A program made the translations under genes and the position numbers. Source: Pontimonas sp. (GTDB lineage: Bacteria; Actinomycetota; Actinomycetes; Actinomycetales; Microbacteriaceae). From it: DNA of 55,608 nucleotides. Location: assembly GCA_030728325.1 (NCBI GenBank), contig JANQZT010000074.1:1-55608 (forward strand), given 5' to 3'. This document shows positions 49,665 to 51,968 of this stretch, in pieces (position 1 is the first letter of the stretch; every line of letters starts with the position of its first letter). Below the pieces are notes generated by a model, which had not been told where the DNA came from, ran no database searches, and saw only the letters and a list, made by a program, of their open reading frames with translations.

Positions 49665-50879
49665 GTGGAAAAGATCAAGGTTGATGGCGTCGTCGTAGAG
49701 CTCGATGGCGACGAAATGACACGTATTATTTGGCAGGCCATCAAGGACCGCCTCATCCACCCCTACCTCGATCTCACCCTGGAGTACTACGACCTGGGAA
49801 TCGAGAAGCGTGACGAGACGGACGACCAGATCACCATCGACGCTGCTCATGCCATTCAGAAGCACGGAGTCGGCGTCAAGTGCGCCACCATCACTCCTGA
49901 TGAAGCCCGCGTGGAAGAGTTTGGTCTCAAGAAGATGTGGCGCAGCCCCAACGGGACCATCCGCAACATCCTCGGCGGCGTGATTTTCCGCGAGCCGATC
50001 ATCATCTCCAACATCCCCCGGCTCGTTCCCGGCTGGAACAAGCCCATCATTGTTGGACGTCACGCGTTTGGTGATCAGTACCGCGCCACGGACTTTGTGT
50101 TCGAAGGACCGGGAACGCTCACCATTAGCTTCCAGCCGAAAGACGGTGGCGAAGCCCAGAGCTTCGAGGTCTTTGAGGCACCCGGTGGCGGTGTTGCCAT
50201 GGCGATGTATAACCTCGACGCCTCCATCCGCGATTTCGCTCGTGCATCCTTGAACTACGGTCTGAACCGCGGATACCCGGTCTACCTCTCGACCAAGAAC
50301 ACCATCTTGAAGGCCTATGACGGACGCTTCAAGGACATCTTCCAGGAGATCTTCGAAGCAGAGTTCCAGGACAAGTTTGAGAAGGCCGGCATCACGTATG
50401 AGCACCGCCTCATCGATGACATGGTGGCAGCTGCCCTCAAGTGGGAGGGTGGCTACGTCTGGGCTACCAAGAACTACGACGGTGACGTCCAGTCCGACAC
50501 GGTGGCCCAAGGGTTTGGATCTCTCGGCCTGATGACCAGTGTGCTCACCACTCCTGACGGCGCAATTGTCGAGGCGGAGGCAGCTCACGGAACGGTGACA
50601 CGTCACTACCGCGAGCACCAGAAGGGCAACCCCACCTCGACAAACCCCATTGCCTCGATCTTCGCCTGGACACGGGGTCTAATGCACCGCGGGAAGCTCG
50701 ACTCGAACCAGGCCCTGATTGATTTCGCCCAGACGCTGGAGGACGTGGTCATCAAGACTGTGGAGTCTGGAGCCATGACGAAGGACCTCGCGATGCTCGT
50801 CGGTGGCGACCAGAAGTGGCAGACCACCGAGGACTTCTTGGCCACCTTGGATGAGAATCTGAAGGCACGACTCGGCTAG
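49665..50879 (+). CDS. icd: NADP-dependent isocitrate dehydrogenase (homodimeric type)
   Basis: Oxidatively decarboxylates isocitrate to 2-oxoglutarate. The 404-residue product resembles eukaryote-like NADP-IDH: it starts [20 protein letters not shown], has the substrate loop [19 protein letters not shown] and the metal region [17 protein letters not shown] with [20 protein letters not shown]. It is not the large monomeric IDH found in some actinobacteria. GTG start. It is followed directly by a promoter for the Cys-rich ORF. Confidence 0.96.
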
Positions 50880-50908
50880 TAGCCAAAATACCCCCAGGGG
50901 TATATACT
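50880..50908 (+). promoter_or_regulatory. Promoter with CsoR/CstR-like operator
   Basis: TAGCCA (50880-50885) and TATACT (50903-50908) have a 17-bp spacer. Within the spacer lies the perfect palindrome ATACCCC-CA-GGGGTAT (50888-50903), which resembles operators of the CsoR/RcnR/CstR family of copper-, nickel- or persulfide-sensing repressors. Binding would occlude the promoter. The repressor gene is not in the window. Confidence 0.6.
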
Positions 50909-50948
50909 CTGAGAGTCGTGATTACTTCAACACTCAAGGAGAACCATC

Positions 50949-51065
50949 GTGTGTAGCCCAGCGCGTTGTAACCGCTGCAGCAAGGTCACCTGGACCGGTT
51001 GCGGAGAGCACATTGAACAGGCTTTGGCTGGTTTCGGACCAGACGAGCTTTGCAAGTGCGCCTAG
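50949..51065 (+). CDS. 38-residue cysteine-rich small protein
   Basis: GTG start seven bases after AAGGAGAA. The product begins MCSPARCNRCSKVTWTGCGE and ends ELCKCA: six cysteines in 38 residues (C2, C7, C10, C18, C35, C37), plus H21, with a CNRC ribbon-like pair and CKC at the end, suggesting a metal or thiol-binding site. I recall similar short CxxC-KTTWxGCGxH proteins in other actinobacteria, without known function. The operator upstream suggests metal or sulfur-stress control. A strong terminator follows, so it is monocistronic. Confidence 0.75.
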   Translation: MCSPARCNRCSKVTWTGCGEHIEQALAGFGPDELCKCA

Positions 51066-51080
51066 TCCTTAGCTGACTCT

Positions 51081-51110
51081 CTCATCCCTAGGCCACGGCC
51101 TAGGGATGAG
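51081..51110. terminator. Bidirectional terminator between the Cys-rich ORF and purU
   Basis: A perfect 14-bp inverted repeat (51081-51094 with 51097-51110) has a two-base centre. It lies between two convergent genes and would serve both transcripts; T-rich sequence (TCATTT) follows on the plus strand. Confidence 0.85.
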
Positions 51111-51968
51111 TCATTTAAAGATGATGGTGCGCACACCATCGAGCAAGATTCGGTGCTCAGCAAACCACCGCACGGCCTGGGTCAGGGTGCGAGATTCCTC
51201 ATCCTGGCCGATAGCCCGAAGCTCTTCGGCAGAGTGAGAGTGATCCACCCGCACCACATTCTGCTCAATGATGGGTCCCTCATCGAGTTCCGTCGTCACA
51301 AAGTGTGCGGTCGCGCCGATGAGTTTCACACCCCGTTCGTGGGCTTGGCGATAAGGGCTCGCTCCCTTGAAGCCGGGGAGGAACGAATGGTGGATATTAA
51401 TCATGCGGCCCTCGAGTGCTGTACACAGTTCAGGGCTCACGATCTGCATGTACCGCGCCAACACGACCAACTCAATGTCATGCTTCTCCACCAGAGCGAG
51501 GACTTCCGCCTCAAACTGAGCTTTGCTGGCCTGGTCGGTAATCGGAAGTGCTCGGAAGGGAACGCCATAGAACTGTGCGACAGGCTCGAGGGCGTCGTGG
51601 TTGGAAAGAACCTGGGGAATATCAATTGTGAGGTGACCATCTCGCTGACGCACCAGAAGGTCGGTCAGACAGTGGCCGGCGCTTGAGGCAAGGATCAGAG
51701 TTCGAAGGGGTCGCCCCACGGTGTTGATCTCTGCGGTCATGTCATAGCGCTCAATCACAGGGGCAAGAGCGGCCTGGAAGCTGTCATAGTCCGAGGTGGT
51801 TTCCACCTGCACCCGCATAAAGAAGCGCCCCGTGTCCTCCGAAGAGAACTGTTGAGACTCGGTGATGTTGCCCTTGGCTTCGACGATTGCCCCGCTGACA
51901 GCGTGGACAATACCGGGCTTGTCATCACAGACGAACGTCACCACAAAGTGAAAAGGAGAGCTTGGCAC
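51111..51968 (-). CDS. purU: Formyltetrahydrofolate deformylase
   Basis: Hydrolyses 10-formyl-THF to formate and THF. The 285-residue product has an N-terminal ACT domain (about 8-85, HFVVTFVCDDKPGIVHAVSG) and a C-terminal formyltransferase-like domain with the catalytic NIHHSFLPGFKGASPY. The ACT domain and the HHSFLP sequence separate it from PurN. GTG start, with TAAGCT six bases upstream, so leaderless. It balances the folate pool near purN, purH, glyA and folD. Confidence 0.95.
   Translation of the reverse strand: MPSSPFHFVVTFVCDDKPGIVHAVSGAIVEAKGNITESQQFSSEDTGRFFMRVQVETTSDYDSFQAALAPVIERYDMTAEINTVGRPLRTLILASSAGHCLTDLLVRQRDGHLTIDIPQVLSNHDALEPVAQFYGVPFRALPITDQASKAQFEAEVLALVEKHDIELVVLARYMQIVSPELCTALEGRMINIHHSFLPGFKGASPYRQAHERGVKLIGATAHFVTTELDEGPIIEQNVVRVDHSHSAEELRAIGQDEESRTLTQAVRWFAEHRILLDGVRTIIFK

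Follow-up and report, generated by a model that had tools for sequence, protein, structure and literature searches.

S. aureus CstR, the two-cysteine per- and polysulfide sensor of the CsoR family that governs the cst operon, controls sulfide oxidation and detoxification, and the term "small protein" is absent from the main text on this system (PMC5480029). In Streptomyces coelicolor, ScCsoR is a sulfane-sulfur sensor with the operator ATACCn6GGTAT, is released by polysulfide, and controls a persulfide dioxygenase and a rhodanese; in the available part of that article, the circuit consists of the regulator, the dioxygenase, the rhodanese, and a sulfite transporter, without mention of any small protein rich in Cys (PMC7533328). 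In M. tuberculosis, according to the accessible text, the copper metallothionein MymT belongs to the five-locus regulon of the CsoR-family protein RicR (PMC10470581). The kind of circuit considered here is already known from CstR and ScCsoR; for copper, MymT under RicR is a known case of a small Cys-rich protein controlled by a CsoR-family repressor.

Descriptions of bacterial persulfide defence comprise a sensor and a number of enzymes; at the locus analyzed here, a tiny and easily missed protein shares the operator. The window is a stretch of 55,608 nucleotides from a Pontimonas sp. genome (1.24 Mb, 91.8% complete), and the locus of a 38-codon ORF occupies positions 50880–51065. As in the S. 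aureus system, the regulator is a CsoR-family protein with two sensor cysteines; unlike the cst operon, the Pontimonas system has five dispersed operator sites, which serve a CoADR-like rhodanese fusion, a rhodanese, a thioredoxin, a DUF4395 protein, and the 38-residue protein. As with ScCsoR, the system is actinobacterial, and the window operator fits ATACCn6GGTAT. The 38-residue peptide is not described in the available portions of PMC7533328, PMC8557817, PMC10318464, PMC5480029, and PMC10470581, and neither the family itself nor any persulfide regulon with a small Cys-rich member was found in the accessible parts of the literature searched, which excluded subscription papers and preprints. 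The family, which is widespread in actinobacteria and often unannotated, is a strong candidate for a new, small component of sulfur-stress defence.

Layout of the locus

The -35-like hexamer TAGCCA (50880–50885, + strand) begins on the base that immediately follows the upstream ORF's stop codon, the perfect palindrome ATACCCCCAGGGGTAT (50888–50903, +), a CsoR/CstR-type operator, fills the promoter spacer, and the -10 hexamer TATACT (50903–50908, +) shares one base with the operator. This placement of an operator inside a promoter, which a sequence-only reading of the window had proposed, held up in a promoter scan, where the TAGCCA/TATACT pair, with a 17-nt spacer and 9/12 consensus matches, was found once, compared to 0.1 on average in 50 shuffled sequences. 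Downstream, as the same reading had it, the ribosome binding site AAGGAGAA (50936–50943, +), with 7 nt from AAGGAG to the GTG, precedes the 38-codon ORF MCSPARCNRCSKVTWTGCGEHIEQALAGFGPDELCKCA (50949–51065, +), which starts with GTG at 50949, encodes six cysteines, and has a stop codon that ends at 51065. The upstream ORF of 404 codons (49665–50879, +), which we take to encode isocitrate dehydrogenase, has a counterpart preceding the small ORF at loci L007, L008, L015, and L022. The next ORF downstream (51111–51968) is convergent, and a strong hairpin (51081–51110, no strand assigned; -29.2 kcal/mol, z -4.9) lies between the two. There is only partial support for the proposal that the small gene has a terminator of its own, because this hairpin, whose terminator role is uncertain, stands between convergent ORFs and a scan found no intrinsic terminator.

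Compared with four close relatives, differences in the 38-codon ORF summed to 9, 11, and 47 at codon positions 1, 2, and 3, respectively, and because they pile up at the third position the ORF looks selected as a protein. In one of these relatives (L007), five codons differed nonsynonymously and four synonymously from the window ORF. A chance ORF was ruled out by the excess of third-position differences together with the at least 577 confirmed relatives found in a scan of species genomes. Cys-responsive leader peptides carry several Cys codons in a row ahead of the gene that they regulate, and a short, Cys-rich ORF that is often near sulfur genes might be an attenuator of this type, with no working protein product. 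This explanation is extremely improbable and was rejected: the ORF has no adjacent Cys codons, the next ORF in the window is convergent, the position relative to sulfur genes varies among loci, and 140 sequences share a conserved residue pattern (CxxC, GCGxH, and CxC or CxGH).

The operator, its genes, and the regulator

The pattern ATACCCNNNNGGGTAT occurs five times in the 1.24-Mb genome, compared to ~0.06 occurrences expected from the base composition of the window; four of these sites are exact matches to ATACCCCNNGGGGTAT and one has a single mismatch. Among 150 host-family genomes, the true motif was present in 60, and a control pattern read backward had 0 occurrences in each of the 150. 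The operator copies are not due to chance. With three mismatches to ATACCCCNNGGGGTAT allowed, there was no enrichment in the Pontimonas genome (41 sites vs 47 for the control), and thus only near-exact sites count.

Four of the five Pontimonas operators precede genes other than the small one. The first stands upstream of a fusion of a pyridine-nucleotide-disulfide reductase with a rhodanese, followed by the CsoR-family gene; the best NCBIfam model for the fusion, CoA-disulfide reductase, scored 398.6 bits, below its cut-off of 578.8. The others stand upstream of a thioredoxin, a DUF4395 protein, and a rhodanese with a start that reads as lipoprotein-like, and at the fusion and DUF4395 sites a further ORF is present across the operator. 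Among 28 operator sites in five relatives, the small protein was the most frequent target (eight sites), followed by CoADR-like proteins, thioredoxins, and rhodaneses (five each); the remaining five targets, assigned by Pfam where the rest were assigned by reading ORFs, were a peroxidase-family protein that reads as a catalase-peroxidase, cytochrome bd subunit I, a YgaP-like membrane protein, a SLAC1-family channel, and a DUF2202 protein. At several sites (including L214, L217, L222, L223, L235, and L237) a second sizeable ORF starts across the operator, which leaves the choice of target gene ambiguous there. Together, the operator-linked genes look like a reactive-sulfur regulon.

Some of these sites carry features of their own. 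The operator upstream of cytochrome bd subunit I (L225 1501–1516, genome G128) and that upstream of the peroxidase-family gene (L222 1501–1516, genome G030, with another ORF on the other side) suggest that respiration and peroxide defence may also come under the regulon. DUF4395 recurs under or beside the operator, in the Pontimonas genome (L037 1135–1150), on a Microbacterium plasmid (L182 6404–7150), and at 4 of 145 loci, a set that contains two same-stretch pairs (L010/L082 and L017/L148); this uncharacterised family may belong to sulfane-sulfur handling. The start codon lies ~9–11 nt past the operator both for the reductase-rhodanese fusion (operator at L039 3773–3788) and for the Pontimonas DUF4395 gene, where the start was chosen by eye, and therefore both transcripts may be leaderless.

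A CsoR-family regulator, which the sequence-only reading had presupposed, is present in the genome as a single PF02583 match (80.3 bits, cut-off 22.8). Its signature is C-A-C, and in an alignment alanine stands opposite the metal-ligand histidine of the copper CsoR 4m1p. The PDB matches 7mq3 and 7mq1, which are named CsoR and which we take to be pneumococcal CstR, have Ala or Asn at this position. The same regulator scored 38.9 bits against the RicR model, for which the cut-off is 175. Near the small protein, all 50 CsoR-family proteins likewise had a residue other than His (Ser in 19, Gly in 17, Ala in 13, Asn in 1), as an alignment of these proteins confirmed, in a set that is biased towards the Pontimonas regulator's kind by its use as the query. 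In a control, the 30 best-scoring host-family CsoR-family loci were all C-H-C (29 by script, L066 by reading, as the script had picked a cysteine pair further upstream), and none had the operator (at most one mismatch) or the small-protein pattern in the stretch examined. By its sequence, the Pontimonas regulator is of the CstR type, sharing with the persulfide-sensing CstR the absence of the metal-ligand histidine.

The operator is a predicted binding site of the same form as the ScCsoR site, a G/C-rich inverted repeat that overlaps the promoter. Operator type alone is no proof of sensor type, because in Thermus the CsoR-family protein that regulates sulfur oxidation recognises another site, according to the available part of its description (PMC10318464).

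A small Cys-rich protein behind a CsoR-family palindrome is also the layout of RicR and MymT, as far as the accessible text describes it (PMC10470581), and the window protein might by analogy be a copper metallothionein under a copper-sensing CsoR or RicR. We consider this very improbable. The MymT system differs in being copper-responsive, and the window protein, which was compared with MymT by description only, matched no metallothionein model in Pfam or NCBIfam; nor did such a model appear among the listed NCBIfam matches of 82 family members. The copper-ligand histidine is missing from the single CsoR-family protein that was found, in a genome that is 91.8% complete, so that a second regulator could be missing. 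In addition, the HMA (copper) locus on contig C48 carries no operator, with at best four mismatches in the 4500 bases checked, and the four other Pontimonas operators serve thiol and sulfur genes plus DUF4395. Copper or nickel as the leading reading was ruled out by the C-A-C regulator and the operator-free copper locus. Between the two roles first suggested for the peptide, a metal chaperone or buffer and a thiol-stress protein, the evidence favours persulfide or thiol stress, because the regulator is of the CstR type and the operator-linked genes are, DUF4395 aside, thiol and sulfur genes and not genes for copper or nickel; a metal-buffer role within that response is still compatible with these results. 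Conservation, the operator, the genes that share it, and the regulator type are seen directly and support the regulon, and we conclude that the small protein very probably belongs to a regulon of the CstR type, with a CsoR-family regulator that would sense persulfide.

Distribution of the small protein and its link to the operator

Homologues with conserved cysteines, whose existence had been left to database searches, are present in large numbers. Small-protein matches were found in 64 of 150 host-family genomes, in 94 of 198 host-order genomes (composite query), and in at least 48 of 396 host-phylum genomes, the last a lower bound because at most 19 candidates were scored per genome. Among plasmids, 68 records had a match with the composite query, 34 of them from Rhodococcus and 16 from Clavibacter. 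A phage-labelled record (MT835623.1, from human faeces, unverified, and possibly bacterial DNA) also holds an unannotated relative (L187, 4001–4102).

The gene and the operator travel together in the host family, in line with the expectation that homologues carry the same operator. Both were present in 52 of the 150 genomes, the gene only in 12, the exact motif only in 8, and neither in 78; the exact motif was thus found in 52/64 genomes with the gene vs 8/86 without it (Fisher's exact test, 4e-20, which overstates the significance because related genomes are not independent). Among 40 of the host-family matches listed, the motif was 36–123 bases upstream in 27, 278–2401 bases upstream in 11, and not within 5 kb in 2.

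Loci were also scored for either the operator or a relative of a sulfur gene nearby. First, in the host family, 27 of 30 loci, including the window locus and a decayed copy (L013), had one or the other when one operator mismatch was allowed, and three had neither. Second, the same was true of 23 of 25 host-order loci, compared to 0/25 for the backward control motif; this set comprised the 26 new loci L188–L213 minus L199, in which the script did not find the peptide pattern. Third, all seven plasmid loci scored positive. Fourth, among species genomes, 65 loci had the operator or a sulfur gene and 15 had neither, counted in the best 80 of at least 577, a selection biased towards the window's kin. 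Finally, in a phylum-wide sample of 28 loci (30 minus L153, which is the same place as L019, and L156, which is the window), 15 had the operator or a sulfur gene and 13 had neither within 1.5 kb on each side. Neighbours at phylum-wide loci, as read, were unrelated to sulfur, and because 13 of the 28 lacked both features the gene may serve something broader in distant relatives. The link to the operator and sulfur genes is strong in the order and in the plasmids examined and looser phylum-wide. Neighbours in these counts were recognised by their similarity to six reference proteins, so that other sulfur genes were missed; some rhodanese neighbours may be unrelated housekeeping rhodaneses, and the sulfur-neighbour figures are raw counts that include any chance proximity.

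Three genomes (G005, G088, and G112) had a small-protein match and no CsoR-family protein that we could find. The match in G005 is the decayed copy (L013 1501–1611), with an internal TGA and His21 changed to Arg; since G005 lacks the regulator, this one case fits a gene that is kept only where the regulon exists. The match in G088, a genus-mate of G005 that also lacks the regulator, is free of stops.

Seven plasmid loci, hand-picked from the 68 records, were examined with neighbours taken from public annotation. Near the small ORF, a "metal-sensitive transcriptional regulator" was listed in six of the seven, an MBL-fold hydrolase in four, a TauE exporter in four, a thioredoxin in three, and an MMPL transporter in five. 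The MMPL family transporters were those of L180, L181, L183, L184, and L186, in each case with a CsoR-family gene listed nearby. The gene had been expected to be invisible to annotation, and five of the seven loci (L182–L186) leave it uncalled: the annotation has no entry at the position of the ORF, and the locus tags on either side follow each other without a gap. It is these consecutive tags, not missing rows, that carry the argument, as the PLSDB table is incomplete. In L181, no listed CDS covers the ORF, and one ends on its first base. The only annotated copy among the seven is RHA1_RS51140 on pRHL3 of Rhodococcus jostii RHA1 (L180), a hypothetical protein. A small gene beside persulfide-type genes is present on both chromosomes and plasmids, with this Rhodococcus gene as an annotated counterpart in a strain used in the laboratory.

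Residue pattern and proposed role

Across 141 distinct sequences, Cys2, Cys7, Cys10, Gly17, Cys18, and Gly19 were invariant, and position 15 was Trp in 140. His21 and Cys35 were absent only in the decayed L013, and Cys2, Cys7, Cys10, Cys18, His21, and Cys35 were present in all 140 untruncated sequences. Position 37 was Cys in 127 of the 141 and Gly in 13; among the latter, 12 ended in C-x-G-H, with histidine at position 38, and one in C-x-G-K-H, with histidine at position 39. Exchange of Cys for His is typical of metal ligands, and the swap of Cys37 for Gly-His is as a metal ligand might behave. The spacing C7-x2-C10-x7-C18-x2-H21 is zinc-knuckle-like. Met aminopeptidase is expected to expose an N-terminal Cys when Cys follows the initiator Met, as Cys2 does here.

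An AlphaFold model of the 38-residue protein had a mean pLDDT of 87.9 and a pTM of 0.51, with strands at residues 3–6 and 13–16, a helix at 22–25, and the CxxC between the two short strands. Fold searches with a chain so small were uninformative: with this model, Foldseek gave a best E of 6.4 and VIA-align placed 0 of 11 chains at a Z of 2 or more. Among PDB sequences, searched with a profile, nothing rose above chance-level matches (best E 0.34, to a zinc-finger protein), and scans of the small proteins found no Pfam or NCBIfam model at its cut-off. Among described families, YyzF/TIGR04129, with a CxxH-CxxC pattern, was one to which residues 18–26 (CGEHIEQAL) matched weakly (Pfam E 0.32, 11.5 of the 27 bits required; NCBIfam E 0.052, 13.8 of 35 bits), far below both cut-offs; 7 of 82 members matched TIGR04129 at an E of up to 0.1. 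From the ligand-like cysteines, which are seen directly, a metal-thiolate fold appears likely. Taken as a whole, and leaving aside any step of sulfur acceptance, we hold with good confidence that this is a real, conserved small protein of a CstR-type regulon, probably a zinc metal-thiolate mini-domain.

What such a domain would do is a more tentative matter, as the regulon is well supported and the biochemistry is what we infer. In the resting state, the repressor would sit on the operator within the promoter spacer and block transcription; persulfide or polysulfide would then modify its cysteines, causing it to leave, and the small protein would be produced together with the CoADR-like rhodanese fusion, the rhodanese, the thioredoxin, and the DUF4395 protein. 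The mini-domain, formed by C7-x2-C10 and C18-x2-H21 with Cys2, Cys35, and Cys37 or His38, would probably bind zinc and might accept, buffer, or relay sulfane sulfur between rhodanese-type enzymes and thioredoxin. A specific role as sulfur acceptor or relay is possible and is proposed tentatively. Somewhat more doubtful is a wider version, in which actinobacterial zinc-thiolate proteins of ~38–60 residues might be sulfane-sulfur carriers or buffers, in effect a "thionein for sulfur", that pass sulfur from rhodanese-type enzymes to thioredoxin; the invariant Cys beside the initiator Met, N-terminal if Met is removed, would be part of that carrier.

The main rival to the acceptor or relay role is a zinc buffer, which would bind zinc and protect or re-supply zinc that sulfide or persulfide strips or precipitates. 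The same Cys/His pattern with its change from Cys37 to Gly-His would suit this role, and in S. aureus sulfide stress brings a zinc-limitation response, as reported in the accessible text (PMC5480029). Neither a zinc transporter nor a Zur-type gene was recognised among the five Pontimonas and 28 relatives' operator targets, assigned mostly by reading, and a zinc buffer would not account for the association with rhodanese, thioredoxin, and PDO-like genes; we judge it unlikely, although it ranks as the chief competitor. With acceptance or relay of sulfane sulfur as the tentatively preferred role, the question of how such sulfur is buffered and passed on becomes addressable through one deletable gene and one synthesisable peptide.

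The small protein could instead be an adaptor or regulatory microprotein, acting by binding to and modulating either an enzyme of the regulon or the repressor. Its very small size, the nearly invariant Trp15, and the invariant GCG core are compatible with docking, and among 170 members examined, 34 of the 74 longer than 44 residues have, after the Cys core, a hydrophobic and basic C-terminal tail (for example GFFARLFGR or GFLSRLFGR), which suggests attachment to a membrane or partner; such a tail is also present at L214, L220, and L221. This alternative is improbable: the window protein has no C-terminal tail of this kind, and most of the invariant residues are ligand-like Cys and His. Genomes G083, G128, and G067 each encode one tail-less and one tailed paralogue, each behind its own operator.
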